64,000 nt of DNA. Source: Alistipes sp. (GTDB lineage: Bacteria > Bacteroidota > Bacteroidia > Bacteroidales > Rikenellaceae). The stretch covers positions 62,001 to 126,000 of the forward strand of contig JAGBAX010000028.1 of NCBI GenBank assembly GCA_017938765.1. Direction: 5' to 3'. The translations under genes were made by a program, and so were the position numbers. Positions 1,525-57,101 of the stretch are shown here, piece after piece. Each line of letters begins with the position of its first letter. Within the stretch, counting starts at the first letter, position 1. The notes below the pieces were generated by a model that searched no databases, was not told where the DNA came from, and worked only from the letters and a program-made list of their open reading frames with translations.

Positions 1525-1633
1525 AGATTTAGTATAGCATTCTGCTATTGCAAAAATAATAACCATTCTCTTTCAAGCAAGCTTGAGTGAATGGTTATTA
1601 TTTTTGCACCATCTACGATGGAATACTAAATCT
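1525..1633 (+). repeat. Cloverleaf 3' repeat, copy 1 (diverged)
   Basis: Outer stem AGATTTAGTAT (1525-1535) pairs perfectly with ATACTAAATCT (1623-1633). Inside are three hairpins: ATAGCA-ttc-TGCTAT (534-548 offsets, i.e. 1534-1548); a 19-bp perfect stem at 1550-1568/1589-1607 whose loop carries TCAAGCAAGCTTGA; and CCATC-tac-GATGG (1609-1621). This is the same architecture as copies near 8316, 30506 and 56895 but with different stem sequences. It starts 12 nt after the efp stop and lies on the same strand. The central hairpin could also act as a terminator. Confidence 0.8.
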
Positions 1634-1671
1634 AAAAACTAACAGATACTAAAATTAAAAAATATTGACAT

Positions 1672-1706
1672 TCCCCCTAAATCCCCCTTTGACAAAGGGG
1701 GACTTG
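1672..1706. repeat. C5/G5 inverted repeat shared with 10.56-10.69 kb
   Basis: CCCCCTAAATCCCCC followed after a few bases by GGGGGACTTG. It is the reverse-strand counterpart of the element found twice at 10559-10690. The rest of the 1513-1816 gap, beyond the cloverleaf, shows nothing recognisable. Confidence 0.6.
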
Positions 1707-1816
1707 GTCGTCACAGTGGTCAGAGAAATCTGCCCACTTCTCCTCCGAGGTGCAACAAATAACCCTCGGCATCTACCACACTCTGACAATAAATTGGGTC
1801 AAAATTTATAGTGCCT

Positions 1817-4228
1817 TTAGAAACCGCCTCCGCCGCCCTGCTGGTTTGCGCCGACCTCCTCGGTGGTGCTGTCAGACTTTCGGTTAGCGCGCTTAACATA
1901 GAGTCCCTGCTTACCAAAGCGGTAGGAGATTGAGACGCGGATAGAGCGCGAAACATTCGTACCCACAAGTCTCTGCACATATGTAGGGGCTGTCATAAGA
2001 AGGTCGTGCTTCATACTCTTGCTATGAGGATTACGCACCGATACAGAGAGCTCTAACTTATCCTTAAGGAACTTCTGACCTAATCGCGCAGATGTTGTGA
2101 GGAACCAATTCTGCGCCACCATAGTCTGCTGTGGTTGCATCTTTGCGCAGTATTCGCTTACTGTCAGTCGCGCACCCTTCCAAAGTGCTATTGTAGCATT
2201 TACACTCTCCGAGAATGCCCAGCCGGCAACAGCGACATCTTCTGACGGTATTCCCTCCTCAAAGTATCCCGCACGAAAGTCTGCCGCTAACTGCAACTTC
2301 TTGGATGGGCGGTAAGATAGCGAGGTCTGGAGTGCATAGGCGCGATTTCTTCCGTGATTGAGATATGTCTGGTTGATTAGTCCATCCTTATCAACAAACT
2401 GATAGCTCGTCACGCGGTTATTTGAGAACATCGTCATAAACTCTGGCGAGACAGTCCACTTATTACTCATCCACGCATACTTGAGCCTTATGCTATGGTT
2501 TACGCCCGTTTTAAGGTCTGGATTTCCGTAGCTACGCGAGAGCGAGGTCTCTGTAACAAATGGCGAGAGTGAATGAATACTTGGTCGTGAGAGTCGCTCG
2601 GAGTAGGATAGCGAGAGGTTATGTCCCTCCTTAATCTTATACGAGAGTGAGAGATACGGCACAACATTTATCAGCGCATTGCTATACTGCTCTGTCTTGT
2701 CCATCACGCTCTTGGAGTCATACCATGCCCCCTCAAGGCGAGCACCCGCACGGGCAGTAATGCTCTTGTGGCTAAAGGCGTAGCCCGCATATAGAGCCGC
2801 AATATTCTTCGTAAGCGTTGTTGTAGAGGCGTGTACGGATGTTGCCCCGGACTGCTCCAGCGAGCTATACTCTACTGTATGCTTCGCGCCAGCCTCAAGC
2901 GAGTGCTTGCCCCACTTATTGTTGTAGTCCGCCTGTAGCACATTATCAAAACCACGATTGAGTGAAACGGTAGAGTATAGGAAAGATGTGCCGTCAGAGT
3001 AAAAAGTATCCTCATTGTTGATACTCTCCGTCGGTGGAGTTACTGAGAAGTACTCCGACACAGTAAGGTTATGTCCCTCTTTGCCCGCAAATGTATGCTC
3101 ATATGCCGCAAGCATATCAACGCCCTTCCAGCGGTTTTTGCTGTACTCTTCAGCCGAAAAGCTGTTGAGCAAACTATCATCCGCCCCGAAGTAGGAGTTG
3201 GTATTGTGCGATGTTGAGTTCCAATTTCCAAACCAACAGCTCGCCTCAATGTTGAGTAGGTTAAGCGAGTCAATCTGATAACCCATACTGAGGTTTGCAT
3301 AGAGGTTTCTGCCGCCCCAACCTCTCTCTGTCTGCTGATGCAGCTTTGAGTATGGCGCATTGGCATTGAGATTCTCCATCACAGCATCGTGAAAACTCAT
3401 AGGGTCATTATCGCTATCACTACCGCCCATATAGAGGCCACCAGAGAGCGAGAACTTATCCTTCTGAACAGTAAAGTTGCTTGAGAATTGACCTGAGTAG
3501 TTACGGTCAAACGAGTTACTACCCGCAAGGCTCACATTTCCGTTATAGCCATCAAAGCGAGTTTTTGAAGTTATGATATTAAGCACACCACCTGCACCCT
3601 CGGCATCGTATTTCATTGATGGATTGGTAATTACCTCAATCTTTTTGATAGACGAGGCGGGCATAGACTTAATAATCTCGTTAAAGTTACGACCCATAGC
3701 ACCTGCCGCACGACCGTTTACCAAAATCTTGTAGTCGCTCTGACCATTCATCAGCACCTTGCCCTCCGAATCTATTGTCAGCTGCGGAATCTTGCGGATA
3801 ATCTCCTCAAGGGTGCTTGACTGCGCCTCTGGGTCATCTTCTACAGAGTATGATAGCTTCTCCGCATCGGCCGTCACTATCGGCTTTTGAACTGTCACCG
3901 CCACAGCATCTACCGCTACACCCTCATTAAGCACCACCTCGCCCAAATCTATCAGCTTGCCCACAGCCGATATTTTGCGCGTTTCGCCCTTGTAACCTAC
4001 GGCAGAGAGCTCAACAGTGTACTCTCCATCCTTGGCAATCGCAATCTCAAAGCGACCATCTGCTCCCGCTGCCACTGCTGTTACTACCTTACCCTCTTGC
4101 TCCGCCGCTACCGTTGCATAGCCAACTGCCCTACGCTGGCTATCCATTGCGCGACCACGAACAATGCTCTCTGCCGATGCAGTCAGCACCAGCAGAGAAC
4201 ATAACACCATTAAACCTAACTTTTTCAT
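1817..4228 (-). CDS. TonB-linked outer membrane beta-barrel protein (OMP_b-brl_3 type)
   Basis: 803 residues. Signal peptide at 1-20, then a carboxypeptidase-regulatory-like beta-sandwich (about 22-105, with GYATVAAEQEGK and DGRFEIAI), a plug domain (about 125-215, with LMNGQSDYKILVNGRAAG and IEVITNPSMKYDAEGAGGVLNII), then a large barrel. The order matches the outer-membrane-beta-barrel family of TonB-dependent transporters. The cargo is unknown. The tail is odd: a charged segment ending in QQGGGGGF instead of a plain aromatic strand. It is monocistronic, behind its own promoter with a palindromic TTACTAC motif. No SusD partner is next to it, which argues against a glycan locus. Confidence 0.88.
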   Translation of the reverse strand: MKKLGLMVLCSLLVLTASAESIVRGRAMDSQRRAVGYATVAAEQEGKVVTAVAAGADGRFEIAIAKDGEYTVELSAVGYKGETRKISAVGKLIDLGEVVLNEGVAVDAVAVTVQKPIVTADAEKLSYSVEDDPEAQSSTLEEIIRKIPQLTIDSEGKVLMNGQSDYKILVNGRAAGAMGRNFNEIIKSMPASSIKKIEVITNPSMKYDAEGAGGVLNIITSKTRFDGYNGNVSLAGSNSFDRNYSGQFSSNFTVQKDKFSLSGGLYMGGSDSDNDPMSFHDAVMENLNANAPYSKLHQQTERGWGGRNLYANLSMGYQIDSLNLLNIEASCWFGNWNSTSHNTNSYFGADDSLLNSFSAEEYSKNRWKGVDMLAAYEHTFAGKEGHNLTVSEYFSVTPPTESINNEDTFYSDGTSFLYSTVSLNRGFDNVLQADYNNKWGKHSLEAGAKHTVEYSSLEQSGATSVHASTTTLTKNIAALYAGYAFSHKSITARAGARLEGAWYDSKSVMDKTEQYSNALINVVPYLSLSYKIKEGHNLSLSYSERLSRPSIHSLSPFVTETSLSRSYGNPDLKTGVNHSIRLKYAWMSNKWTVSPEFMTMFSNNRVTSYQFVDKDGLINQTYLNHGRNRAYALQTSLSYRPSKKLQLAADFRAGYFEEGIPSEDVAVAGWAFSESVNATIALWKGARLTVSEYCAKMQPQQTMVAQNWFLTTSARLGQKFLKDKLELSVSVRNPHSKSMKHDLLMTAPTYVQRLVGTNVSRSIRVSISYRFGKQGLYVKRANRKSDSTTEEVGANQQGGGGGF

Positions 4229-4260
4229 TACTTTTGAAGTTTTATTTTCTGTTTCTGATG

Positions 4261-4337
4261 CAAAGGTAGTAATTTTTTACTACTATGCAACACAAAGTAG
4301 TGTTTTTTTTTGATTTGTAGGTAAAAAATATTACTAC
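4261..4337 (-). promoter_or_regulatory. Promoter and repeated TTACTAC operator candidate of the barrel protein
   Basis: On the minus strand TACCTTTG (plus 4261-4268) fits the -7 box. It overlaps a perfect palindrome GTAGTAA-tttt-TTACTAC (4266-4283). Further half-sites occur at 4296-4302 (GTAGTGT) and 4331-4337 (TTACTAC). Repeated half-sites covering a promoter suggest binding by a regulator; none is encoded nearby. Confidence 0.5.
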
Positions 4338-4382
4338 GGGCATTTTTACCTATGTTTAATAAACGCGTAAAAGTGTAGATTA

Positions 4383-4931
4383 TTACTCACCCCACTTATA
4401 ATGTGGAGCAGAAATACCAAGAAGAGCGACTATTCGCTCGGTGACTGTAGCACAGAGAGCCTCAACGGTCTCTGGGCGAGAGTAGAAAGATGGAGAGGCG
4501 GGAAGAACGACTGCCCCCGCCTCGGTAAGGGTAGTCATATTTCTGAGGTGGATAAGCGAGAGTGGCGTTTCGCGCACAACGACAATAAGTCGCCTACGCT
4601 CCTTGAGCATAACATCGGCGGCACGCTCAATAAGACTCTGCGAAGTTCCCGCAGCAATTCGCGCCACAGTTCCCACGCTTGACGGCACAACCACCATCGC
4701 ATCCCAATTCTGTGAGCCACTGGCCACACTTGCAAACATATCGTCGTTGCTGTATCTGTCAATCTTACTGCTCTCTGGAAGCACAACCCCCTCTGTTGCA
4801 AGCACCGCCTCGGCATTAGTGCTAAATATCAGAGCAATGCGCTCAACCTGCTCGCTGTCAATAAGTTGGCAGAGCAGTTGGCGAGCATATATTCCACCAC
4901 TGGCAGCAGTAACAGCAACAACGACCTTCAT
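4383..4931 (-). CDS. ubiX: UbiX-type flavin prenyltransferase
   Basis: 182 residues, a typical UbiX/Pad1 flavoprotein. It makes prenylated FMN from FMN and dimethylallyl phosphate, the cofactor of UbiD-family decarboxylases. Visible signatures are TAASGGIYARQL at the N-terminus (phosphate-binding loop), PSSVGTVARIAAG near residue 83, the E-R-D core SLIERAADVMLKERR and VVRETPLSLIHLRNM. The deacetylase gene lies 3 nt upstream, so the two are co-transcribed. No ubiD is in the window. A ubiquinone role is not expected in an organism that makes menaquinone. Confidence 0.93.
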   Translation of the reverse strand: MKVVVAVTAASGGIYARQLLCQLIDSEQVERIALIFSTNAEAVLATEGVVLPESSKIDRYSNDDMFASVASGSQNWDAMVVVPSSVGTVARIAAGTSQSLIERAADVMLKERRRLIVVVRETPLSLIHLRNMTTLTEAGAVVLPASPSFYSRPETVEALCATVTERIVALLGISAPHYKWGE

Positions 4932-4934
4932 ACT

Positions 4935-5543
4935 TTACAGTTCTATAATTTTACACTTAAGCCCCAACTGCTGCACATACTTAAGGGTGCGTGGCAGGGC
5001 GTAGCTCATATTCTTAAAGGCCTTCTCCGAGTCGTGGAACACCACAATAGAGCCTGCCGTAATATGGTCAGTAACATTCTTAAGGCACTTCTCTGGCGAG
5101 AGCGAGCGGTTATAATCTCTTGAGACGATATCCCACATCACAATCTTATACTTCTGCGCCACAGCCCTCATTTGCGAAGGGGTCACGCGAGCATAAGGGG
5201 GACGAAAGAGCTCCGAGTGGATAAAGTCGCCCGCAAAATCTACATCCTCAAGATACCTCTCAAGCGACATACCCCACCCCTTCTGATGCGAATAGGTGTG
5301 ATTACCCACCTTATGCCCCTCAGCAAGAATCTTCTGATATAGGTCGGGGTACATCTCAACATTCTTGCCAAGCACAAAGAATGTTGCCTTGGCATTATAC
5401 CGCCTAAGTGTAGATAAAATCCACTCTGTAACGCCAGGCGTAGGTCCGTCGTCAAAGGTGAGAAAGACGCCATTATCATCCTCAATTTCCCAAATAAGGT
5501 CGGGCATTAGGCGGCGTATAAACTTGGGCGGTTTGATTTTCAT
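4935..5543 (-). CDS. Polysaccharide deacetylase family (NodB domain) protein
   Basis: 202 residues from the ATG at 5543; a TTG six codons upstream is also possible but lies within the promoter. NodB motifs: TFDDGP at 29-34 (D31 catalytic base, D32 metal ligand), HTYSH at 82-86 (H82 and H86 metal ligands), RPPYAR near 118 and a late HDS motif. Such enzymes remove N-acetyl groups from peptidoglycan or other aminosugar polymers. There is no signal peptide, so it may act in the cytoplasm or be exported in another way. It is the first gene of a two-gene unit with ubiX; the link in function is unclear. Confidence 0.88.
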   Translation of the reverse strand: MKIKPPKFIRRLMPDLIWEIEDDNGVFLTFDDGPTPGVTEWILSTLRRYNAKATFFVLGKNVEMYPDLYQKILAEGHKVGNHTYSHQKGWGMSLERYLEDVDFAGDFIHSELFRPPYARVTPSQMRAVAQKYKIVMWDIVSRDYNRSLSPEKCLKNVTDHITAGSIVVFHDSEKAFKNMSYALPRTLKYVQQLGLKCKIIEL

Positions 5544-5548
5544 AAGTG

Positions 5549-5596
5549 CAAATGTAGTCAATAATTTTGAATTTGCACAAATAATGTATATTTTTG
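5549..5596. promoter_or_regulatory. Divergent promoters for deacetylase (-) and DUF4837 gene (+)
   Basis: Minus strand: TTTG (plus 5578-5581), 21 nt, TACATTTG (plus 5549-5556), only 5 nt before the ATG at 5543. Plus strand: TTTG (5566-5569), 19 nt, TATTTTTG (5589-5596), 16 nt before the ATG at 5613. The two promoters interlock, so the operons may compete for RNA polymerase. Confidence 0.65.
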
Positions 5597-5612
5597 TGGT
5601 AACATCGTAACT

Positions 5613-6665
5613 ATGAACATTATGAAACTTATTACCAAGATTACAACGCTACTGCTTATCACTCTTGCGACTATTGGTTGCCGAGAGATTAATTCACTTA
5701 CTGACCAGAATAAAAAACCTATTCAGGGAGGTGCCTACGAGGTGCTTGTCGTGTGCAACAATGCCGAGTGGGAGAGTAGCGTAGGTGCAAAGTTGCGCGA
5801 GCTGCTTGAGCAGCCCGTAGAGATGCTCAACCAAAACGAGCCTATGTTCAATGTTCTACGCATCACGGCTAACGACTTCCGCCACCTACTGCTTCAGCAC
5901 CGAAATATCCTTAAGGTAGTTATCTCCGACAAGGCTACGCAGGCACAGATTACGGCAGAGTACGATGTAGATGCTGCTCCGCAGATTGTTCTTACCTTCC
6001 AAGCCCCTACACAGCAATCAGCATTAGAGTATCTCAATACTAATGGTGATGCGCTGCTCAAGGTGCTTGAGATTGCCGAGCGTAACCGCACCATTGCCTA
6101 TGCCGAGAAGCACAATGTAAAGGTGCTTAACGACCTGCTACGCAGCGAGTTTGATATTGAAGTTCGCATACCAAAGGGTTATGAGCTTCGCTCACAGAGC
6201 CAGGATTTTATCTGGGCATCATACGAGTTCCCTACTGCCAGTCAGGGCTTTTTCTGCTACAGCTATCCATATCGTGGCAAGGGCAGTCTTACAGCCGACT
6301 ACCTTGTGGCTATGCGCAACAACTTTGCCAAGCGCATTCCAGGCCCAAGTGATGGCTCGTATATGATTACCGTAGAGCAGATTCCAGATGCTGACGGCAA
6401 CTACAAGCCATTTACTCCGCTCTACCGCTCTGTTGTTGTCAATGGCAAGGAGTGGATTGAAATGCGCGGCTTCTGGGATGTTGAGAACGACTATATGGGA
6501 GGTCCATTTGTCAGCTACACGACTATCAACGACGCAACAAACGAGGTCTTTACTATCGACTGCTATGTTCACAGTCCAAAGTACGGCAAGCGCAACTTTA
6601 TCCGTCCTTTAGAGCACCTTGTTTACCTAATTTCATTCCCAAAGAGTGTGCAGCAGTCAAAATAG
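5613..6665 (+). CDS. DUF4837 family lipoprotein
   Basis: 350 residues. Hydrophobic leader with lipobox LATIGC, C23 being the lipidation site. The remainder matches the Bacteroidota DUF4837 family in its typical stretches (GGAYEVLVVCNNAEWE near the start; WIEMRGFWDVENDYMGGPF in the last third). The family has no established function; it is an envelope lipoprotein, often next to housekeeping genes. Its last 20 nt overlap the start of glf, which implies translational coupling. Confidence 0.85.
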   Translation: MNIMKLITKITTLLLITLATIGCREINSLTDQNKKPIQGGAYEVLVVCNNAEWESSVGAKLRELLEQPVEMLNQNEPMFNVLRITANDFRHLLLQHRNILKVVISDKATQAQITAEYDVDAAPQIVLTFQAPTQQSALEYLNTNGDALLKVLEIAERNRTIAYAEKHNVKVLNDLLRSEFDIEVRIPKGYELRSQSQDFIWASYEFPTASQGFFCYSYPYRGKGSLTADYLVAMRNNFAKRIPGPSDGSYMITVEQIPDADGNYKPFTPLYRSVVVNGKEWIEMRGFWDVENDYMGGPFVSYTTINDATNEVFTIDCYVHSPKYGKRNFIRPLEHLVYLISFPKSVQQSK

Positions 6666-7758
6666 CAAACCCTACGATATCCTTATCGTTGGCGCGGGGC
6701 TCTTCGGCTCTGTGGTGGCTTATCGCGCCATAAAGGCGGGCAAGCGCGTGCTTGTCATTGACCGCCGCAGCCATACGGGCGGTAACCTCTACTGCGAAAA
6801 TAGCGACGGTATTGCAGTTCATCGCTACGGCCCACACATCTTCCACACCTCGGATGCCGATGTGTGGCAGTGGGTGAACTCTATAGTTGAGTTTGTGCCC
6901 TATATCAACTCCCCTATTGCCAACTTCAAGGGCAAGCTCTACAACCTGCCCTTCAATATGAACACCTTCTTCCAACTCTGGGGCGTAACCACCCCTGAGC
7001 AGGCAGAGGAAAAGATTAGTAAGCAGCGAGCAGAGTGTGGCATAGGAACACCTCAAAACCTTGAGCAGCAGGCCATTTCCCTTGTTGGCACAGATATCTA
7101 CAACACCCTTATTAAGGGCTATACCGAGAAGCAGTGGGGCAGAAAATGCACTGACCTGCCTGCCGATATTATCCGCCGACTGCCCGTGAGGTTTACTTTT
7201 GACAACAACTACTTTAACGACACCTATCAGGGTATTCCTCGTGGTGGGTACAACGCCTTTATAGACAAGTTGTTACAAGGTGCCGACATTGAGCTAAACA
7301 GCGACTTTTTCGCTCGCCGAGACCACTACACCTCACTTGCCAGCAAGATTGTCTACACAGGCGAAATTGACCGATATTTTGACTACTGCTTCGGCGAGCT
7401 TGAGTACCGCACCGTGAGTTTTGCGGATGAACGCATAGAGAGGAGCAACTATCAGGGTGTGGCGGTGATGAACTTCACCGACAGTGAGACCCCCTATACC
7501 CGCATAATTGAGCATCGCCACTTTGACCGTAGCTGCACAGCCGCCCATACCATTATCACGCGCGAGTATTCTGCCGAGTGGAGTGCCGGTAGCGAGCCAT
7601 ACTACCCTATCGCAGACAGTCGCAACAGCGCCATTGCCGAGAAGTACAGAGCTCTTGCCGCACAGTGCAGCAATGTCATCTTCGGAGGTAGACTTGCTGA
7701 GTATCGCTACTACGATATGCACCACATAGTAAAAAGAGCATTAGAAGTTGAGCTATGA
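6646..7758 (+). CDS. glf: UDP-galactopyranose mutase
   Basis: 370 residues, the normal Glf length. It converts UDP-galactopyranose to UDP-galactofuranose for surface glycans. The FAD-binding Rossmann motif GAGLFGSVVA is at 16-25, followed by DRRSHTGGNLY and RYGPHIFHT. KGYTEKQWGR and FTFDNNYFNDTYQGIPRGGY belong to the substrate site. The start is GTG at 6646, inside the end of the DUF4837 gene: no ATG lies close enough upstream of the FAD motif. It overlaps rlmH by 4 nt (ATGA). A galactofuranose transferase is not seen here. Confidence 0.95.
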   Translation: MCSSQNSKPYDILIVGAGLFGSVVAYRAIKAGKRVLVIDRRSHTGGNLYCENSDGIAVHRYGPHIFHTSDADVWQWVNSIVEFVPYINSPIANFKGKLYNLPFNMNTFFQLWGVTTPEQAEEKISKQRAECGIGTPQNLEQQAISLVGTDIYNTLIKGYTEKQWGRKCTDLPADIIRRLPVRFTFDNNYFNDTYQGIPRGGYNAFIDKLLQGADIELNSDFFARRDHYTSLASKIVYTGEIDRYFDYCFGELEYRTVSFADERIERSNYQGVAVMNFTDSETPYTRIIEHRHFDRSCTAAHTIITREYSAEWSAGSEPYYPIADSRNSAIAEKYRALAAQCSNVIFGGRLAEYRYYDMHHIVKRALEVEL

Positions 7759-8228
7759 ACATAGAACTGATAGTCATCGGCAAAACCGACTCTAAAGAGA
7801 TTACAGCCCTTGTAGAGATGTATACAAAGCGCATAAACTTCTACAACCGCTTCACTATCACATATATACCCGACATACGCAACAACAAATCCCTAACCGA
7901 AGCACAGCAGAAAACTGCCGAGGGCGAGGCTATACTGCGCCTGATTGAGACCTCCGACCGCGTAGTGCTTCTTGACGAAAAAGGGACAGAGTTCCGCTCT
8001 ATAGAGTACGCAGATTGGCTACAAAAGCGGATGAATAGCGGCGTAAAACGACTTCTCTTTGTCATCGGAGGCCCCTACGGCTTCTCCGAGGCCGTCTACG
8101 CCCGCGCAAACGAGAAGATATCACTCTCCAAGATGACCTTCTCCCACCAAATCATCCGCGCCATATTCACCGAACAACTCTACCGCGCATTTACTATCCT
8201 GCGCGGCGAACCCTACCACCACGAGTAG
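7755..8228 (+). CDS. rlmH: 23S rRNA (pseudouridine-1915 N3)-methyltransferase
   Basis: 157 residues, full-length RlmH of the SPOUT (knotted) methyltransferase fold. It methylates pseudouridine 1915 in helix 69 of 23S rRNA, on assembled ribosomes. Signatures: LLDEKGTEF, FVIGGPYGF (S-adenosylmethionine loop) and the C-terminal knot LSKMTFSHQIIRAIFTEQLYRA ending in EPYHHE. It overlaps glf by ATGA. A cloverleaf repeat begins right at its stop codon. Confidence 0.97.
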   Translation: MNIELIVIGKTDSKEITALVEMYTKRINFYNRFTITYIPDIRNNKSLTEAQQKTAEGEAILRLIETSDRVVLLDEKGTEFRSIEYADWLQKRMNSGVKRLLFVIGGPYGFSEAVYARANEKISLSKMTFSHQIIRAIFTEQLYRAFTILRGEPYHHE

Positions 8229-8432
8229 ATTGGCTACGCAGTACTGCCCGCTTTTTGAAAAAAGCAGGGCGTGCAAAAACTTTATGAAAAACTCCGTTTT
8301 TCTTCCGTGCTGATGCGGATTTAGGATAGCCTTGCGGCTATTACGACAAAAAATAGAGCCATTCACTTTCAAGCAAGCTTGAGTGAGGCTCTATTTTTCA
8401 TCGTACTCTCTGTGAGAGTTTCCCTAAATCCG
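8229..8432 (+). repeat. Cloverleaf 3' repeat, copy 2
   Basis: Begins at the rlmH stop. The first 87 nt (8229-8315) are the rlmH-proximal segment, with GCTACGCAG and paired A/T-rich hairpins. The cloverleaf follows: outer stem CGGATTTAGG (8316-8325) with CCTAAATCCG (8423-8432); arm 1 ATAGCC-ttgc-GGCTAT (8326-8341); arm 2 TACGA (8342-8346) with TCGTA (8401-8405) and a 12-bp stem (8349-8360/8387-8398) tipped by TCAAGCAAGCTTGA; arm 3 ACTCTC-tgt-GAGAGT (8405-8419). The next bases, 8433-8486, carry AT-rich repeats (CTTTAACTTCACTAAATTC) also seen near 21720 and 30450. Confidence 0.85.
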
Positions 8433-8486
8433 AATAAACTCAAAAGCGAATTTTCCCTAAACTCTTTAACTTCACTAAATTCTCTA

Positions 8487-8912: not shown

Positions 8913-8914
8913 AA

Positions 8915-9778: not shown

Positions 9779-9892
9779 AGTATTTTATATTTTAAAATTT
9801 CACGCAAATTTTTGTAAAAATAGGCATTTTTACTCTAAAAAGCAAGAAAAATGAGGTAAATTCATCATATCGGCCATTTTTTGAGTTTTGAT

Positions 9893-9923
9893 TTTGAAAT
9901 TCAAAATATTTATTTTACCTTTG
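9893..9923 (+). promoter_or_regulatory. Promoter of greA
   Basis: TTTG (9893-9896), 19 nt, TACCTTTG (9916-9923). A leader of about 80 nt follows before the ATG at 10011. Confidence 0.65.
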
Positions 9924-10010
9924 CAGTGAAATATAAGCAACATTAGGGTTTCAGCCGAAAGGTTGAGATTCTTGTTTTTTTGTTATGCAATAAAAAAGAC
10001 AATTATAACT

Positions 10011-10487: not shown

Positions 10488-10510
10488 ATATAAAATCTAA
10501 ATATAAAGGT

Positions 10511-10706
10511 AATGGTACAAAAGTAGGCTATCCGTTTGGGTAGCCTATTTTCACTACAAGTCCCCCTCACAGGAGGGGGATTTAGGGGGTGGGTAACACA
10601 AAGCAAAATGGTACAAAAGTAGGCTATCCGTTTGGGTAGCCTTTTTCACTACAAGTCCCCCTCACAGGAGGGGGATTTAGGGGGTGGGTAACACAAAACA
10701 AAATGG
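10511..10706 (+). repeat. Tandem 95-96 bp repeats carrying hairpins
   Basis: Two nearly identical units (10511-10606 and 10607-10701), and the start of a third that merges with the tRNA-Arg terminator. Each contains AATGGTACAAAAGTAGGCTATCC, a hairpin AGGCTA...TAGCCT followed by T, and an inverted repeat of CCCCCTCAC/GGGGGATTTAGGGGG. The units look like duplicated terminators of greA, probably made by duplication between short direct repeats. Confidence 0.85.
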
Positions 10707-10708
10707 TA

Positions 10709-10749
10709 CAAAAGTAGGCTATCTGTTTTGCAGATAGCCTACATTTTGT
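10709..10749 (-). terminator. Terminator of tRNA-Arg (works on both strands)
   Basis: Twelve-base stem GTAGGCTATCTG/CAGATAGCCTAC with loop ttttg, flanked by A-rich and T-rich stretches (TGTAC...GTACA outer pairing). It lies immediately 3' of the tRNA. Confidence 0.75.
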
Positions 10750-10820: not shown

Positions 10821-10834
10821 GAGAGAATTTGAGT

Positions 10835-21698: not shown

Positions 21699-21834
21699 CG
21701 AGTACCGAAGCTTTTTAAAATAGTGAGTTTAAGGAGTTTAGTGAATTTAAGGAGAATTACCCCTATATTCATTAAGCTCCTTAATTTTTTGTTCTGCGTC
21801 AGCCTGCTAATGGCTAATGGCTAACGGCTAATGG
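21699..21834 (+). repeat. Intergenic repeat mosaic with CTAATGG/CTAACGG heptamers
   Basis: Starts with CGAGTACCGAAGCTTTTT (as in the flank of the copy at 57.0 kb). It contains TTTAAGGAGTTTAGTGAATTTAAGGAG, related to stretches near 8460 and 30450. It ends with TCTGCGTCAGCC and four heptamers CTAATGG, CTAATGG, CTAACGG, CTAATGG (21807-21834). No ORF. Confidence 0.7.
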
Positions 21835-30422: not shown

Positions 30423-30505
30423 GTTGGCTAACGCAGAACAGAGAGATTAATGAAGTTAAGGAGGTTAAAGAATTTAGTGACAAACTTTGCCTGTCTGCGT
30501 ATATT

Positions 30506-30716
30506 CGGATTTAGGTTGGCCATCGTAGATGGTACGAGAGAAAAGAGAGATTGCTTGTCAAGCTTGCTTGAACAAAAGCATATCTCTCTTTTTTGTCGTA
30601 ATAGCCGCACGGCTATCCTAAATCCGCATCAGCACGGAAGCGAAACAAAGTTTCGCCGAAAGTTTTTGGTGAAGCTTTTTTCAAAAAGCTTCGGTACACG
30701 CTTTCTGCGTAGCAAA
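30506..30716 (-). repeat. Cloverleaf 3' repeat, copy 3
   Basis: On the minus strand it starts at the cca stop (30716 downwards). The 90 nt flank (30627-30716) has GCTACGCAG, a GAAGCTTTTTgaAAAAAGCTTC hairpin and GCGAAAC/GTTTCGC. The cloverleaf follows: outer stem CGGATTTAGG/CCTAAATCCG (30506-30515/30617-30626), ATAGCC-gcac-GGCTAT (30601-30616), central stem AAAAGAGAGA/TCTCTCTTTT (30541-30550/30583-30592) with TGCTT/AAGCA above it and the TCAAGC tip, and CCATC-gta-GATGG (30520-30532). The area 30423-30505 otherwise holds only AT-rich repeats. Confidence 0.85.
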
Positions 30717-50162: not shown

Positions 50163-50164
50163 AG

Positions 50165-50755: not shown

Positions 50756-51897
50756 ATGCTTATTCGCTCGCGCTGCGTTGCACGAACTACAAAACGCACC
50801 CAAGGCTCAATAAAGTCAAATATCGGATCCCACGCTGCGATACCCTTCTCGCCCACGCGATTTGCAATCTTGCGTGTAGCCACACTCATAACAATATATC
50901 GCACAAGAAGCAGCAGTGCCGTTAGAGCCTTAAACTCCAATGGAAGAGTAGCAATAGCACCTATCGCCGCCACGAAGAATGATACTCTACAGAGCATCTT
51001 GCAACCCTCATCATTACGCGCCTGCTGAGTGTAGAAGTGGCGGGTCTGACCCTGACGGTAAATCTCTGTCAACCAGCCATTAAACGACTGCGGAGACTGC
51101 TCACTACAGTGCGCATTTGGGGTGAGCAACACCGATACATTATCCTTTGTTGCGATGCGCTGTATAAACAAATCATCCTCGCCTGCAGTAAGGTCAAGGT
51201 GGTCAAAACCCCTAACACTATAGTAGAGGCTCTTTGTAAAGCCCATACAGTTGCGCGATGCACCGTACTGACGGCCTCGGATAGCCTCAGCAAGATATCT
51301 GCTAACCTCGCTAAAACGATATTTACGATAGAAGAGGTTCATTATTCCGCTACCCTTCTCCCAGTTGCAGTATCCCAGAACAATATCGCCATACATAAAT
51401 CCGCGCGCCATATAACTTGCCCAGTCACGAGTCGTAAGGCGGGTCTCAGGAGTGGTAATTACAACATGCTCATATGTAGCAGACCTAATGCCGATATTGA
51501 GTGCTAACTGCATAGAGATAGGATACTGTGGAGTGTAGTCTACATGTATGGTATTCAGATGCTTAAAGAACTTACGCATATGCTTTAGCGTAGCATAGAA
51601 GGCATCCTCCTTACCCACATACACAGCCACAACCTCGTACTGCGGATTGCTCTGGAGCAGTAGCATACGGAAATCGCCCTTCAGATACTCCTCATCCTCG
51701 CCAAAAAGAGGTACAACAATAGAGATAGGAGGCTGCTCCTGCAGTAGCTGCTTGCGCGAAGTCTGCTTGAACTTTGCAACAATCATACTTCTACAGAGCG
51801 AGACTATCTGTTCTATGAACAGCACCACAACCAATAACATCAGCACCACCGCCGCGATGCCGTATCCATCAACAATAATATCCCTAACCAAATTCAT
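50746..51897 (-). CDS. Family 2 glycosyltransferase (membrane associated)
   Basis: 383 residues from ATG 51897. One N-terminal transmembrane helix (about 10-32), a GT-A domain (about 55-280) with PPISIVVPLFGEDEEYLKGDF, TTPETRLTTRDW (metal-binding region) and FDHLDLTAGEDDLFIQRI, then a C-terminal helix pair. Related proteins add sugars to surface polymers or lipids; acceptor and donor are unknown. It is the first gene of the operon, and its promoter box sits 6 nt before the ATG. Confidence 0.85.
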   Translation of the reverse strand: MNLVRDIIVDGYGIAAVVLMLLVVVLFIEQIVSLCRSMIVAKFKQTSRKQLLQEQPPISIVVPLFGEDEEYLKGDFRMLLLQSNPQYEVVAVYVGKEDAFYATLKHMRKFFKHLNTIHVDYTPQYPISMQLALNIGIRSATYEHVVITTPETRLTTRDWASYMARGFMYGDIVLGYCNWEKGSGIMNLFYRKYRFSEVSRYLAEAIRGRQYGASRNCMGFTKSLYYSVRGFDHLDLTAGEDDLFIQRIATKDNVSVLLTPNAHCSEQSPQSFNGWLTEIYRQGQTRHFYTQQARNDEGCKMLCRVSFFVAAIGAIATLPLEFKALTALLLLVRYIVMSVATRKIANRVGEKGIAAWDPIFDFIEPWVRFVVRATQRERISIWR

Positions 51898-51903
51898 AGG
51901 TTG

Positions 51904-51911
51904 CAAAGATA
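51904..51911 (-). promoter_or_regulatory. -7 box next to the glycosyltransferase start
   Basis: TATCTTTG on the minus strand, 6 nt before the ATG at 51897; no good TTTG at 19-21 nt. Together with the tgt, uppS and deacetylase cases, it points to very short leaders. Confidence 0.55.
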
Positions 51912-51946
51912 GCAATTAATGGCGAAAAGATGAAACTATCGTAAGA

Positions 51947-52819
51947 TTATTTTTTAGGTGCTACTATTCTCAAATTTCCCGACAGGCACTCAATCTCCAG
52001 CGGGAACTCTGCACTCGGCTGTCCATCCATATCTGTTAGTGGCGAAAGGGGCGAAGTGATACTCAACTTTGACGAGCGGATATGGATTATATTCTCATTC
52101 TCACTACCCGCAACAAGCAGTTTTGTTGCCGCCCAAGCACCCTGAAAAGTTGTGCACTTGCGCATTATCATACAGTCAAGAAGTCCATCGCGGATAGAGG
52201 CACTTCTGGCAATAGGGAAGCGACCCGCCGTCTCGCCATTGAATATTAGCGTCATCGTGCTATCCACATCCACCTCTCCCCCATCGTGAACAATATGTAG
52301 AGGTATATACTCACGATTGTGAAGCTCCTTTGACCCCTCAATAAGGTATGCAGCCTTACCAAGATGGCGCTTTATCTTCTCTGGCGTATGCTGAGAGGTT
52401 GTTGTGAACATTCCAAAGCTGAAGATATTGACAAAGTAGAGTCCATTTACCCTTCCGCAATCAATCCTCTGCTCCTGCCCCTCAACAATCTGTCGCGCAG
52501 CCTTCAGCGTACGCGAGCTAACCCCTATAGCCCCCGCAAAATCATTTGCCGTGCCTGCAGGGATAATACCGAGAGGATAGTCTAACCCCTTAGTGCGCAT
52601 AGCATTGACAACATAATTTATCGTGCCATCGCCACCGCAGATAACTACAAGGTCAATATCCTGAGCGACATCATCAAATGGATTTTCTCCAAAGCGCAAC
52701 ATCTTTGGCTCTATCTCATAGCCCGCCTCAAAGAAGATATCCTCTAATGCGTCTATCTTACGACGGATTCTTCCTCGTCCCGCCTTAACGTTATATAGCA
52801 ACAACAACCTCTTACTCAT
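51947..52819 (-). CDS. Diacylglycerol/lipid kinase (DAGK catalytic domain)
   Basis: 290 residues. DAGK-type fold: LYNVKAGRGRI (about 9-19), the ATP loop VVICGGDGTINYVVNA (about 56-71), LGIIPAGTANDFAGAIG and LIFNGETAGRFPIARSASIRDGLLD. It phosphorylates diacylglycerol or a related lipid (YegS, DgkB, BmrU-type). The precise lipid is not predictable. It is 1 nt after apbE, so co-transcribed. Confidence 0.9.
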   Translation of the reverse strand: MSKRLLLLYNVKAGRGRIRRKIDALEDIFFEAGYEIEPKMLRFGENPFDDVAQDIDLVVICGGDGTINYVVNAMRTKGLDYPLGIIPAGTANDFAGAIGVSSRTLKAARQIVEGQEQRIDCGRVNGLYFVNIFSFGMFTTTSQHTPEKIKRHLGKAAYLIEGSKELHNREYIPLHIVHDGGEVDVDSTMTLIFNGETAGRFPIARSASIRDGLLDCMIMRKCTTFQGAWAATKLLVAGSENENIIHIRSSKLSITSPLSPLTDMDGQPSAEFPLEIECLSGNLRIVAPKK

Positions 52820-52820
52820 A

Positions 52821-53810
52821 TCACTCCCGATTTGTCAGCGTAGAGAAGACTCTGTACTCCTCCCCTGCTGCAATTATAAAGTAGACCTCCACACCCTTAT
52901 CCTTAAGGCTCTCTGCTACCTGAACAGCCCTATCTGTACCCATAGCCATAAACATCGTCGCCATAGCATCAGCCTCTACGCAACGATTAGCCACAACAGT
53001 AGCCGAAAGGAGAGTTGAAATAACACCCTTTCCTGTCTTTGGATTTATCGTATGAACAATCTTATTTCCCTCACTATCAGTGTAGTAACGGCGATAGTTT
53101 CCTGATGTTGCTAACGCCCTATCGCTTAGCTCAATTACCGCCTGCTGATACTCTCCCGGACTTTGATTACCCTCAAAAGGGGTATCCACACCCACGCGCC
53201 ACACGTCGCCCCTTGGACTCAATCCAGATGTGCGAATCTCGCCACCCACCTCAACAATATAGTCGCCACATCCCAGCGCCTCAAGCCTATCGGCAAGAAG
53301 GTCTACCGTATAACCCTTTGCCAGCGAGTTGAGGTCCAGTTGCAGGCGATTGTCGCTCTTTACAATGCGACTACCCACGACTCTAAACTTCTCAAAGCCA
53401 ACAAATTGTAGTAGAGAGTCTACATTAGGATGTTCTATTTTCCGCTTTTTTGCAAAGCCATAGGCATCAGTAAGCGGCTTTACAGTAATGTCGTAATAGC
53501 CATCACTCAGACGATACATACGGGCTGCAACAGCAATATTTCTTATAAGATGAATATCTAAAGAGTCAGTCACTCCAGCATTAATTCTACTAATAAGCGA
53601 CCGAGTGTTAAATATTGACATTGAGGACTTTGCCGTACTATCAATAACCATAGCCTCAGCATAGACTTGCTTCTGAGTAAGCGCAGTTTTTGCCACAATA
53701 CGAAACGTTGTGCCAAGCATATACCCCTCTACAGTAACATACTCATTTCGCGGAGCACACCCCACAGAGAGCAACAATGTCGCAAATATCGCAAATACAA
53801 CCCTCTTCAT
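52821..53810 (-). CDS. apbE: FAD:protein FMN transferase, lipoprotein
   Basis: 329 residues. Lipobox SVGC with C18, so it is an envelope lipoprotein. ApbE motifs: MLGTTFRIVAKT, YDITVKPLTDAYGFAK, LDLNSLAKGYTVDLLADRLEALG, DYIVEVGGEIRTSG and HTINPKTGKG followed by VVANRCVEADAMATMFMAMG. It attaches FMN to threonines of periplasmic flavoproteins such as the RNF and Na+-NQR subunits. Divergent from rpsO and driven by its own promoter. Confidence 0.94.
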   Translation of the reverse strand: MKRVVFAIFATLLLSVGCAPRNEYVTVEGYMLGTTFRIVAKTALTQKQVYAEAMVIDSTAKSSMSIFNTRSLISRINAGVTDSLDIHLIRNIAVAARMYRLSDGYYDITVKPLTDAYGFAKKRKIEHPNVDSLLQFVGFEKFRVVGSRIVKSDNRLQLDLNSLAKGYTVDLLADRLEALGCGDYIVEVGGEIRTSGLSPRGDVWRVGVDTPFEGNQSPGEYQQAVIELSDRALATSGNYRRYYTDSEGNKIVHTINPKTGKGVISTLLSATVVANRCVEADAMATMFMAMGTDRAVQVAESLKDKGVEVYFIIAAGEEYRVFSTLTNRE

Positions 53811-53831
53811 CTTTAGACTGTTTCAACAACG

Positions 53832-53863
53832 CAAAGTTATAAATTTTTGACTAAAATCGCAAA
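53832..53863 (-). promoter_or_regulatory. Promoter of apbE
   Basis: Minus strand TTTG (plus 53860-53863), 20 nt, TAACTTTG (plus 53832-53839). Confidence 0.7.
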
Positions 53864-53953
53864 TAGAGCCATCTACCACCCACTTGTGATACCAATATTA
53901 AAAAAAGAGGTGCAAATTTTGCTATTTTTGTTTCTAAATCAAGAAATTATCTC

Positions 53954-53961
53954 TATCTTTG
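53954..53961 (+). promoter_or_regulatory. -7 box of rpsO
   Basis: TATCTTTG; TTTG lies 23 nt upstream (53927-53930). The leader of about 80 nt before ATG 54043 could hold an autoregulatory site. Confidence 0.55.
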
Positions 53962-54042
53962 CACCGCTTTAACGCTATTCCGGTAAGGGGGATGCGGATG
54001 AAGTATTTTATTAATTTACAAACTTCTAAACATTTTTTCACT

Positions 54043-54315
54043 ATGGCTTATTTAACAGCAGAGAAAAAGGAGGAGATTTTTGGTCAGTACGGCAAGTCTA
54101 ACAAGGACACTGGTTCACCAGAGAGCCAGATTGCACTGTTTTCGTACCGTATCAGCCACCTTACAGAGCACCTTAAGAGCAACCGTCACGACTTCGGTAC
54201 CCAGCGAGCACTTCTTCGCTTGGTAGGTAAGCGTCGTCAGCTGCTTGAGTACTTGAAGGAGGTTGATATCGAGCGTTACCGCGCTATCATTAAGACCCTC
54301 AACCTTCGTAAGTAG
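54043..54315 (+). CDS. rpsO: 30S ribosomal protein S15
   Basis: 90 residues from ATG 54043; 28 in-frame codons upstream belong to the leader. The family signature [51 protein letters not shown] is present. S15 nucleates the 30S central domain. A terminator separates it from pnp, the usual neighbour. Confidence 0.97.
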
Positions 54316-54319
54316 TACG

Positions 54320-54363
54320 AGGAAGAGAATGGAGGCAGCATTGTGTTGCCTTCATTTTCTTTG
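54320..54363 (+). terminator. Terminator between rpsO and pnp
   Basis: GAAGAGAATGGAGGCAGCA pairs with TGTTGCCTTCATTTTCTTT across loop ttg, with a few mismatches, T-rich at the end. It could be partly read through into pnp or cut by RNase III. Confidence 0.75.
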
Positions 54364-54416
54364 TTTGCAATTATTGTTTGCAATTATTTTTTTGGACGAA
54401 TTATATTAGACGAATT
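54364..54416 (+). repeat. Short tandem repeats in the pnp leader
   Basis: TTTGCAATTATTG occurs twice in a row (from 54363 and 54376), and GACGAATTAT occurs twice (from 54395 and 54409), the second running into the pnp ATG. The tandem copies may move the start region if they slip. Confidence 0.6.
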
Positions 54417-56642
54417 ATGGAAAACAAGTTGTACAACGCTGTACAGAAGTTCATCCCACTGGAGGGTGGACGCGAGATTATGATTGAGACCGGCAAGCTG
54501 GCAAAGCAGGCTGACGGCTCAGTTGTTGTTAGACAGGGCGATACGATGCTGCTCGCCACTGTAGTTGCCGCAAAGGACGCAAAAGAGGGAACAGACTTTA
54601 TGCCTTTGCAGGTTGAGTATAAGGAGAAGTTTGCCGCTGCGGGTCGTATCCCAGGTGGCTTTATGAAGCGTGAGGGTAAGGCTTCAGACAACGAGATTCT
54701 CGTTGCTCGTCTTATTGACCGCGCACTGCGCCCACTCTTCCCTGCAGACTATCACGCCGAGGTTTTTGTTACCGTAAACCTTATCTCGGCAGACAAAGAT
54801 ATTCAGGCTGATGCACTCGCAGGTCTTGCAGCATCAGCCGCTCTTGCAGTCTCTGACATCCCATTCGGAGGCCCAATCTCTGAGGTGCGTGTAGCTCGCA
54901 TCGGTGGTCAGTACTGCATCAACCCTACATTCTCACAGATGTCAGACTGCGACCTTGACCTTATCGTTGCAGGTACTATTGACAACATCCTTATGGTTGA
55001 GGGTGAGATGAATGAGGTTAGCGAGGAGGTTATGCTCGGCGCTATTAAGTATGCTCACGAGGCTATCAAGACTCACTGTGCTGCTCAGATTGAGCTTTCA
55101 AAGGAGCTTGGCAAGGACGTTAAGCGTGAGTACTGCCACGAGACAAATGACGAGGAGCTTCGCCAGACAATTATCTCTGAGCTCTACGACCGCGCTTACG
55201 CTATCGCTACAAGCGGTACTATGAAGCACGAGCGTAGCGAGGCTTTTGAGGCTCTTGAGGCAGAGTTCGCTTCTCGCTATACAGAGGAGGAGCTTGAGGA
55301 GAAGGCTCCACTTATCCACAAGTACTTCCACGATGATGTACAGAAGATGGCTATGCGTAATATGATTCTTGACGAGGGCAAACGTCTTGACGGTCGTCGT
55401 ACAGACGAGATTCGCCCAATCTGGTGCGAGACAAACTACCTGCCTTGCGCTCACGGATCTGCAATCTTCACTCGTGGTGAGACTCAGTCACTTTCAACTG
55501 TAACCCTCGGCACAAAGCTTGACGAGAAGATGTACGACGAGGTACTTATTCAGGGTTCAGAGCAGTTTACACTCCACTACAACTTCCCTCCATTCTCAAC
55601 TGGCGAGGCTCGCCCATCTCGTGGTGTTAGCCGTCGTGAGATTGGTCACGGTAACCTCGCTTGGCGTGCGCTTAAGCCTATGGTACCAGTGGGAGAGGAG
55701 AATCCATACACTGTTCGCGTAGTGTCAGATATCCTTGAGTCTAACGGCTCATCATCTATGGCTACTGTTTGCGCAGGCTGTATGGCACTTATGGATGCAG
55801 GTGTAAAGCTCCGCAAGCCAGTCTCTGGTATCGCTATGGGTCTTATCTCTGACAGCGCAACTGGCCGTTGGGCAGTGCTTTCAGATATCCTTGGCGATGA
55901 GGACCACCTCGGCGATATGGACTTCAAGGTTACAGGTACTCGCGATGGTATCACAGCTACACAGATGGATATCAAGGTTGACGGCCTTAGCTACGAGGTA
56001 CTTGCAAAGGCTCTTGAGCAGGCTCGTCAGGGTCGTATGCACATCCTTGACAAGATTTGCGAGACTATCTCTGAGCCACGCGAGGACTACAAGCCATTCG
56101 TTCCACGCATTGAGCAGATTCTTATTGACAAGGACTTCATCGGTGCAGTTATCGGTCCTGGCGGTAAGGTAATCCAGGAGATTCAGAAGACTACAGGCAC
56201 AACAATCACAATCACCGAGACCGACAAGAACGGTGTAGTTGATGTGTTTGGTCCAGATAAGGCATCTATTGACGCAGCTATGTCACGCATTAAGGGTATC
56301 GTTGCTGTTCCAGAGGTTGGCGAGCAGTATCACGGTACTATTAAGAGCATCGTTGCTTTCGGTGCCTTCGTAGAGATTCTTCCAGGCAAGGAGGCTCTGC
56401 TCCACATCTCGGAGATTGACTACCGTCGCTTTGAGACTATGGAGGAGACAGGCCTTAAGGAGGGTGACCAGATTGATGTTAAGCTTATCGGCCTTGACTC
56501 AAAGACTGGCAAGCTCAAGCTCTCACACAAGGCACTTCTTCCAAAGCCAGAGGGCTGGGTAGAGCCAGAGCGTAAGCCTCGCGGTGAGCGCCCAGAGCGC
56601 AAGGGCGAGGGCGAGCGTCGCGAACGCCGTCCACGCAAGTAA
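54417..56642 (+). CDS. pnp: Polyribonucleotide nucleotidyltransferase (PNPase)
   Basis: 741 residues from ATG 54417 ([18 protein letters not shown]); 13 in-frame codons before it lie in the leader repeats. Two RNase PH cores (about 10-225 and 320-545, the second with [27 protein letters not shown]), a KH domain (about 560-620, [20 protein letters not shown]) and an S1 domain (about 625-700, [27 protein letters not shown]). It degrades mRNA from the 3' end by phosphorolysis. The tail is Lys/Arg/Glu-rich, ending ERRERRPRK. Pairs with rpsO as in many genomes. Confidence 0.97.
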
Positions 56643-56650
56643 ATAGCAAA

Positions 56651-56676
56651 ATACCACCTTCGGGTGGTATTTTTTT
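56651..56676 (+). terminator. Terminator of pnp
   Basis: ATACCACC-ttcg-GGTGGTAT with six T: an ideal tetraloop terminator, 8 nt after the stop. Confidence 0.95.
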
Positions 56677-56677
56677 G

Positions 56678-56880
56678 CCATTAGCCATTGGCTTGCCTTC
56701 GGCAACCCGACCCTGCTCCGCCTCGGCAGTATCAGTCGCAGTGCAAGCACTTCAAAATGCGAAATTGAAAATCTGTGAGCAAGCTCCCGTTTTCAATCTT
56801 CGCCTTTTGCACCTTCGGTGTGCGACCGCTGTTGCTCTCGGCTTAATCGCAGCGTTAGCCTTTCATAGGTACAGACTTCG
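56678..56880 (+). repeat. GTAC/heptamer repeat, copy 3 (rearranged)
   Basis: Heptamers CCATTAG and CCATTGG (56678-56691), then CTTGCCTTCGGCAACCC and GCTCCGCCTCGGCAGT, shared with 40.3 kb, and GCTCTCGGCTTAATCGCAGCGTTA, shared in reverse with 47.7 kb. It ends with GGTACAGAC-ttc-GTCTGTG. The region 56643-57101 holds only this repeat, the terminator and cloverleaf copy 4. Confidence 0.7.
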
Positions 56881-56894
56881 TCTGTGTGTTTATT

Positions 56895-57101
56895 CGGATT
56901 TAGGAAATCTCTCGTAGAGAGTACGATGAAAAATAGAGCCTCACTCAAGCTTGCTTGAAAGTGAATGGCTCTATTTTTTGTCGTAATAGCCGCAAGGCTA
57001 CCCTAAATCCGCATCAGCACGGAAGCGAAACAAAGTTTCGCCGAAAGTTTTTGGTGAAGCTTTTTTCAAAAAGCTTCGGTACTCGCCCTCTGCGTCAGCC
57101 A
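56895..57101 (-). repeat. Cloverleaf 3' repeat, copy 4
   Basis: On the minus strand it starts at the nuclease stop (57101 downwards). The 90 nt flank (57012-57101) is nearly identical to that of copy 3 (GAAGCTTTTTgaAAAAAGCTTC, GCGAAAC/GTTTCGC). The cloverleaf follows: outer stem CGGATTTAGG/CCTAAATCCG (56895-56904/57002-57011), TAGCC-gcaa-GGCTA (56987-57000), TACGA/TCGTA plus a 12-bp stem tipped by TCAAGCTTGCTTGA, and CTCTC-gta-GAGAG (56909-56921). Confidence 0.85.

Follow-up and report, generated by a model that had tools for sequence, protein, structure and literature searches.

The 64,000-nucleotide stretch of Alistipes sp. DNA analyzed here (the window) contains four copies of a four-armed element, which lie, as the original prediction had correctly placed them, 3' of efp, rlmH, cca and a nuclease gene and on the strand of the respective gene. 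The gene names are supported by Pfam (EFP, SPOUT_MTase, PolyA_pol and Endonuclease_NS, respectively). Copy 1 (positions 1523–1635, forward strand), identified by its fold, its position and a CM R1 score of 94 bits, belongs to a divergent class and consists of the core only: its first position lies 10 nt past the stop codon of efp, and the two additional hairpins found ahead of the core in copies 2 to 4 are missing. Behind rlmH on the forward strand, the left end of a composite unit is formed 3 nt past the stop codon by the segment GGCTACGCAG (8232–8241), followed by hairpin B of the GCCCGCTTTTT/AAAAAAGCAGGGC type (8246–8270), which has several unrelated stem versions among the copies, by hairpin C, GAAAAACTCCGTTTTTC (8286–8302), of which variants exist, and by the class 1 core of copy 2 (8315–8433; 143 bits with CM R1), supported by its fold and by a sequence-blind fold scan. 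On the reverse strand, the segment GCTACGCAG (30705–30713) adjoins the cca stop codon and precedes hairpin B of the GAAGCTTTTT/AAAAAAGCTTC type (30671–30692; repeat family D1), hairpin C (30640–30656) and the core of copy 3 (30505–30627; 110 bits with CM R1), a class 1 frame carrying the arm GAGAGATATGC and supported by its fold and by orthologues. Likewise on the reverse strand, the segment GGCTGACGCAG (57092–57102) touches the stop codon of the nuclease gene and is followed by hairpin B (57058–57079; repeat family D1), hairpin C (57025–57041) and the class 1 core of copy 4 (56894–57012), with the same score and support as copy 2. Downstream of this copy lies a small hairpin, CAGACGAAGTCTG (56872–56884, reverse strand), present behind many other copies. 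All hairpins outside the cores and the segments of copies 3 and 4 were read directly from the sequence.

The four copies share one fold order, namely outer stem, short hairpin, long arm and second short hairpin. A four-way junction was obtained in 4/4 copies, with MFE z-scores of −9.8, −8.5, −7.3 and −8.6 for copies 1 to 4 (200 dinucleotide shuffles each), bearing out the common fold proposed earlier, and the opposite strand gives the same fold. The stem pairs previously quoted for the four copies agree with the sequence, and the stop-proximal segment attributed to three of them was found as a GGCTACGCAG-type segment at most 5 nt from the stop codon in copies 2 to 4. The tip TCAAGC-nn-GCTTGA, which had been described as the one part kept, is indeed present in the four window copies but not across the copies of the genome, where variants such as CAAGTAAACTTG occur. 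The only matches of ARAGORN and Rfam in the window are two ordinary tRNA genes, and a tRNA or known riboswitch was accordingly rejected as the identity of the element. No Rfam family matched at the gathering score or convincingly below it, either in the window or, judged by E-value, at 10 and 13 further loci.

The family extends far beyond the four copies: at least 37 places with an element, the window's four included, were found in the 2.1 Mb genome that holds the window, which comes from an uncultured relative of Alistipes. Relatives are present in 46 of 180 genomes of the genus, the window's own counted in, and 7 of 13 genomes from a second Bacteroidales family carry them beside tRNA genes, with two or three of these matches doubtful. 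Two of the seven (L342 and L346), each overlapping a tRNA-Thr gene, are four-way only in part, while a third (L348; 34.5 bits) gives no clean MFE fold. In this second family the element lies directly behind tRNA-Ser genes and, as oriented by the model, antisense to the tRNA. The core measures approximately 107 to 129 nt, and the identical four-arm order recurs in copies of unrelated sequence across the two families. A strict sequence-blind scan for the four-way fold, which recovers two of the four window copies (copies 2 and 4), gave 33 matches in 1.145 Mb from Alistipes and near relatives, these stretches being partly picked around known copies. None was found in one first-order Markov resample of the same stretches, which is not an exact shuffle, or in 142 kb from other Bacteroidota. 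The tip CAAR..YTTG occurs in 63 of 67 fold-scan matches, most of them from loci picked by sequence models.

The copies show a strong preference for gene ends. In the window's genome, 31 of 37 lie behind a same-strand gene, 24 of these 31 at 74 to 107 nt from the stop codon; in genome G104 all 20 copies do so, 18 of them at 71 to 113 nt. A run of at least five T in six positions follows the arm in 35 of 46 copies and a run of five A in six precedes it in 35 of 46, by a lenient test whose window extends beyond the arm. In most copies the long arm, which tends to be flanked by an A-run and a T-run, looks like a two-way intrinsic terminator placed at the end of the upstream gene, and this is most likely how it works. 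Since 11 of 46 copies fall under the run threshold in each direction, termination cannot be what maintains the fold in all copies. The sense orientation (31/37 and 20/20), the strong predicted RNA folding, the constraint on paired bases described below and the recurrent tip together speak for an element acting at the RNA level, in which the sense cloverleaf would terminate transcription or shield the 3' end of the mRNA and a protein would bind to the tip, with gene conversion supplying variation and selection keeping the RNA fold. We consider this possible but somewhat unlikely. An arm that ends transcription would leave the second small hairpin and the outer stem's 3' half out of the transcript, and the antisense orientation to tRNA in the second family likewise argues against an RNA role.

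We next consider the pairing itself. Double-sided changes occur at 46 of 47 pairs, among copies with little common sequence, and covariation reaches 0.603, where shuffled controls give 0.176 and slid ones no more than 0.088; the covariation expected from the original prediction stands far above the controls. Of the outcomes named there as refuting, neither a restriction to the four copies nor chance-level covariation was seen. The number of further pair types is barely above that of shuffles (107 vs. 96.9, matched by 3 of 500). The outer stem comprises 10 pairs with 95.3% of cells paired. Differences are concentrated outside the stems, affecting 57 of 2718 paired and 94 of 804 unpaired positions in 29 nearest-copy comparisons, and 7 of 932 paired and 17 of 239 unpaired positions in 10 same-site orthologue pairs (five of the 12 matched-site pairs discussed below and five other orthologous pairs). 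Isolated double changes are few: they make up 6 of 13 two-sided changes among nearest copies, and the 10 orthologue pairs, which are of the same site and class, show one two-sided pair change against five one-sided ones.

A single-strand, cis-acting RNA is expected to tolerate G-U and to avoid A-C. Overall, this signature was not seen: G-U was found in 22 and A-C in 53 of 3136 cells, and 18 representatives of less than 70% identity gave 7 and 13, respectively, whereas tRNAs from the same loci, taken as a control, gave 12 G-U to 1 A-C, which weighs against the RNA-level explanation. The first small hairpin alone reverses the trend (13 G-U vs. 5 A-C). Of the selection on the folded RNA or single-stranded DNA proposed originally, the constraint on paired bases is upheld, but the lack of preference for G-U over A-C speaks against selection on one RNA strand. 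As the four stems moreover remain nearly all Watson-Crick, the level at which the fold is maintained is most likely that of DNA (as a cruciform or in single-stranded form) or of transcripts from the two strands together, rather than one RNA alone.

Comparison of matched sites between two species (G104 and G000) points to the origin of the stem differences. At 7 of 12 sites the two copies differ in their arms, on one side or in class; one of the 12 pairs (L340/L012) is matched by its downstream flank only. The comparison covers 13 of the 20 copies in G104, 12 of them with an available counterpart from G000. At the 13th site, G104 carries the full element and G000 only a hairpin with A- and T-runs resembling the arm. 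The differences are mostly blocks, that is, whole arms or half-elements swapped between copies, and the "compensating stem changes" of the original prediction are, given the single two-sided change against five one-sided ones in orthologues, not borne out as stated. We infer that many element sites are inherited while their contents are exchanged between copies arm by arm through recombination or gene conversion. At the efp site, an orthologous copy is present in G036; no copy stands there in G028, G003 and G006, and G003 carries a plain terminator-like hairpin instead. At the cca site, G028 and G104 hold class 2 and G003 an unrelated third version, while in G006 a plain terminator-like hairpin takes the place of the element. 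Synteny between G028:C4 and G000:C2 is limited to one 6-kb segment.

Such block differences, together with the few isolated double changes (6/13 two-sided; 1 two-sided vs. 5 one-sided), the site cut down to an arm-like hairpin and the lack of a G-U excess over A-C, are what mostly neutral palindromes would leave behind, in which hairpin-templated correction and gene conversion keep stems perfect and swap blocks and only the central terminator is useful to the cell. This explanation appears improbable to us, as correction by itself would not be expected to produce the four-arm order in unrelated sequences of two families or the recurrent tip.

For our preferred reading we judge the chances to be about even: the family would be a dispersed, non-coding palindromic repeat that is conserved in shape, homogenized by recombination and used as a terminator. 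Its identity would lie in the four-way fold of outer stem, short hairpin, long arm and short hairpin, the arm usually with the CAAR..YTTG tip that a putative factor would recognize, and not in its sequence. In the clade that includes the window's genome, most copies sit at a gene 3' end, where they usually close a composite unit that begins near the stop codon and runs from the segment GGCTACGCAG through hairpins B and C to the four-way core. Several observations count against this reading. A strand-symmetric DNA element does not need the strong sense orientation, which fits an RNA role; 6 of 37 copies have no same-strand ORF of at least 90 aa before them; and 5 of 22 copies (one, L007, counted by eye) fold by MFE not into the cloverleaf but into a rod, the two small hairpins being paired with one another. 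The G-U excess in the first hairpin, the few extra pair types, the 11 of 46 copies under the run threshold and the negative searches on mobility described below are to be added.

A bolder version, which we regard as unlikely, is a mobile or conversion-driven DNA element recognized by shape alone, which a structure-specific enzyme would maintain and spread while hosts reuse the long arm as a two-way terminator. The four-way cruciform or single-strand fold with its CAAR..YTTG tip might then be nearly the sole conserved thing in two Bacteroidales families, with every stem turning over. For the family in general, mobility is putative. The Y1/RAYT transposase (PF01797) was found in 0 of 30 genomes by a search that finds it in 5 of 14 known genomes taken as a control, and IS200/RAYT-type mobilization was rejected on this ground. 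A viral or plasmid origin was rejected, since plasmids gave no match and the sole viral pattern match lacks the fold. An autonomous long copy was considered for an insert of approximately 170 nt with an ORF-like stretch in hairpin B of some copies, which is probably no gene, as a stop interrupts it in another species (by eye). Matched sites vary in modules on both sides, and the search for a target-site duplication gave no clean empty site or boundary. The family may still be the non-autonomous mobile unit suggested earlier, but neither the transposase sought nor a clean insertion site was found. Integration commonly occurs at tRNA genes, and the position beside tRNA-Ser genes in the second family, with the patchy copy number in the genus (46/180 genomes), could indicate the recognition or attachment site of a recombinase or an enzyme handling single-stranded DNA, movement being the main reason for the fold. 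We hold this to be very improbable: no candidate enzyme was found for the one transposase family sought, plasmids are without copies, and for 12 of 20 G104 copies the matching site in G000 is occupied too.

Covariation usually counts as strong evidence that an RNA is functional. In this family it is very strong, yet the differences are largely block swaps and bear no overall RNA-strand signature. The family thus clearly illustrates the need to tell RNA selection apart from the maintenance of palindromes at the DNA level, and is a testable example of a shape-conserved repeat family sited at gene ends.

Among known systems, SPRITE is likewise a terminator-like repeat of interspersed type that is overrepresented near the 3' ends of CDSs, where it was proposed to be a co-opted terminator; its placement at CDS 3' ends (31/37 and 20/20 here) and its hairpin with a U-tract (35/46 sense and 35/46 antisense, by the lenient test) recur in our family. 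SPRITE is, however, a single 18-bp duplex with a U-rich tract, whereas here the arm stands within a four-way fold whose stems vary between copies. Candidate structured RNAs such as Bacteroidales-1 and Bacteroides-2 (PMC2864571) are non-coding structures proposed for the same order; no Rfam family matches the element, as noted above. BOX and RUP of pneumococcus (PMC3049150) are also modular or tightly folded interspersed repeats with terminal inverted repeats paired when folded, but were found in that study by sequence profile models, while stems of distant copies here are largely unrelated and a fold-only scan finds many. REP/RPE elements share the extragenic palindromes, the proposed roles in termination and mRNA stability and the possible nature of non-autonomous mobile DNA; REPs measure 20–40 bp with a GTAG or CGTC tag, and GTAG REPs go with RAYT transposases (PMC3733652). 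The present element differs in being approximately 107–129 bp and four-armed, without a GTAG/CGTC tag at the outer-stem ends (by eye, in the copies inspected), and neither a tagged 20–40 bp palindrome nor a Y1 transposase in the genome (0/30) assigns it to the REPs. The terminal inverted repeats typical of MITEs are present in the form of the 10-pair outer stem.

All four copies of the element, a non-coding repeat, in the window were folded; each gave an outer stem enclosing a long arm with one short hairpin on either side. The MFE z-scores were -9.8, -8.5, -7.3 and -8.6 (each against 200 shuffles), and for none of the four did a single shuffle fold as well as the native sequence (0/200). The common four-way fold of the original prediction was thus borne out, and the genes upstream were confirmed as efp, rlmH, cca and a gene for a DNA/RNA non-specific nuclease.

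The family is far larger than these four copies. In the window's own genome (G000, 2.10 Mb) there are 24 occurrences of the tip pattern. Of these, 23 are four-way elements, including one (L007) that was assigned by eye and not caught by the regular expression; the remaining one is due to chance. A covariance model, R1, built from 15 copies gave 68 matches in G000. These reduce to 37 places, since the symmetry of the fold makes 31 of the places match on both strands. Copies lacking the exact tip were recovered by covariance model search, and the successor model R2 showed at least three further places among the matches listed, while the repeat finder by itself revealed pairs only.

Double-sided changes were found at 35 of 47 pairs among 36 G000 copies, and at 46 of 47 in an alignment that spans nine genomes and 67 copies, 66 of them distinct. 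In the latter, 95.2% of cells are paired, compared with 72.6% for shuffles. Its covariation score was 0.603 against 0.176 for shuffles and 0.056 to 0.088 for slid controls. Further pair types numbered 107 versus 96.9 for shuffles, of which 3 in 500 got as high as 107. The covariation accordingly exceeds these chance levels, with the qualification that alignments fitted to the structure favour it and that kinship among copies can beat shuffles without any structure. A scan blind to sequence required just a long arm placed between two small hairpins, all inside an outer stem. In 1.145 Mb of DNA from Alistipes and close relatives, partly picked around known copies, it gave 33 hits, and in 392 kb from two genomes with the divergent type it gave four. 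There were no hits in a single first-order resample, in 142 kb from other Bacteroidota, or in 400 kb of an Alistipes genome that the models do not match. The scan is strict: of the four copies in the window it recovers just two. Among the 33 hits, 31 are of kinds known to the models, including one of quite different sequence that bears the tip (L341:5413). The other two were missed by the third model, R3: G000:C2:143278, with the tip GAAAAGAACTTTTC, and L327:16565, apparently a member of a second foldback family. A CAAR..YTTG tip is present in 63 of 67 scan hits, most of these loci having been pre-selected by the models.

With R2, the element was found in 14 of 61 genomes, own included and all within the genus, and in none of 24 genomes from other families of the order. 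With R3, 46 of 180 genomes in the genus carry it, as do 3 of 393 across the order (own included in both); counts are lower bounds, since few candidates per genome were scored in large searches. In another Bacteroidales family, that of G287, 7 of 13 genomes gave one R3 match each. Five of these follow a tRNA-Ser gene at a distance of 0-9 nt and, in the model's orientation, are antisense to it; the fold is clean in four of them. The other two of the seven overlap tRNA-Thr and are doubtful. In Alistipes, only 3 of 66 copies have a tRNA gene within 300 nt, and a fourth has one at 627 nt.

As predicted, most elements lie 3' of a gene on that gene's strand: 31 of 37 copies in G000 follow a same-strand ORF of at least 90 aa, 24 of them beginning 74-107 nt past the stop, and in the genus genome G104 all 20 do so, 18 at 71-113 nt. 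Elsewhere, 40 copies, mostly of the divergent type, comprise 26 after a same-strand ORF, 10 after an opposite one and 4 with none in reach. In most G000 and G104 copies the gap between stop and core is occupied by two extra hairpins, B and C, so that the composite unit begins at or near the stop codon. An imperfect hairpin of ~170 nt stands in, or replaces, hairpin B at L002, L110, L322, L227, L091 and L096; it contains an ORF-like stretch, interrupted in L227.

The search for efp, rlmH and cca orthologues covered 61 genomes of the genus, and R2 was then run on the 30 best loci for each gene. Behind efp, the element is present in 2 of 30 loci (G000 and G036); G003 carries a plain hairpin terminator instead, and G028 and G006 a different foldback, which looks related to the second foldback family. 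Behind rlmH, it was found in G000, G036 and G028, and not in G003 or G006. The G028 copy (L142, ~2123) is cut by an IS-like end and the contig end; the IS end TGTACTGACCCC..GTTGGACA, presumably IS3-like, interrupts the element tip in this one case only. Behind cca, G000, G028 and G003 carry elements of three different sequences and G006 a plain terminator; scanning 80 cca loci gave four matches at cca, in G003, G028, G104 and a new locus, L227.

The long arm is usually preceded by an A-run and followed by a T-run; under a lenient 5-of-6 threshold, 35 of 46 copies pass in the sense and 35 of 46 in the antisense direction. Because of these runs and the plain terminators at orthologous sites, the arm is likely a two-way intrinsic terminator in this clade. 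This predicted role accounts neither for the other stems nor for copies without a T-run. The Rfam search of the window and further loci returned no fitting family, and among the open-licence papers found by literature searches none describes the four-way family in its title or the opening of its abstract. The closest precedent is the pneumococcal SPRITE (PMC3049150), an interspersed repeat that resembles a terminator and lies near CDS ends; REPs (PMC3733652) differ in size, tag and transposase.

Twelve of the 20 G104 copies were matched to a G000 copy, one pair (L340/L012) by the downstream flank only. Core identity is 97-100% at five of these sites and 68-87% at seven, where the difference concerns an arm, one side or the class as a whole. 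Among the G104 copies, L326 resembles a left-right chimera, and the base of its arm has lost full pairing. At one further site G104 has a full element and G000 only an arm-like hairpin with A- and T-runs. Recombination or gene conversion presumably caused the differences between matched copies. In 29 nearest-neighbour comparisons, differences fell at 57 of 2718 paired versus 94 of 804 unpaired positions; paired bases thus change far less, and the stems are therefore conserved or corrected. At ten orthologous same-class sites, 17 of 239 unpaired bases differ, and the 466 pairs show five one-sided changes and one two-sided. The family thus covaries, but compensating stem changes in the form proposed are not supported: between matched copies whole blocks differ at seven of twelve sites, and at the ten same-class sites one-sided changes outnumber two-sided ones.

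If selection acted on one RNA strand, G-U should be favoured, and overall the elements do not show this. Were the fold required in DNA, or in transcripts from both strands, G-U and A-C would be expected in roughly similar numbers. Non-Watson-Crick cells in the 67-copy alignment comprise 22 G-U, 53 A-C and 94 others of 3136, and in 18 representatives under 70% identity 7, 13 and 34. One-sided changes gave 9 G-U, 15 A-C and 7 others in close comparisons, and 2 G-U and 2 A-C in ten orthologue pairs. As a control, acceptor stems of 29 tRNAs from the same loci had 12 G-U, 1 A-C and 1 other, a set that leans against A-C because ARAGORN requires pairing. The first small hairpin is the exception among the helices (13 G-U versus 5 A-C), and the orientation bias relative to genes argues against a purely strand-symmetric explanation.

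Further repeat features were seen. The second foldback family (~125 bp) has an outer stem TTTTGTCGT/ACGACAAAA, layered stems and a variable inner arm; copies lie at G000:C2:48705-48829, 84889-85014 and 127121-127246 and at G028:C4:53244 and 104011, several of them directly following a four-way element. In G006 (L091-L093), paired four-way elements of different classes stand face to face across ~70-190 bp; this paired arrangement is itself repeated. Tandem repeats of ~95 bp adjoin tRNA-Arg at window positions 10511-10741. Intergenic short tandem repeats of the GGCTAATGGCTAACGGC type occur at 21806, 40259, 47618 and 62204 of the window, and also behind several four-way elements.
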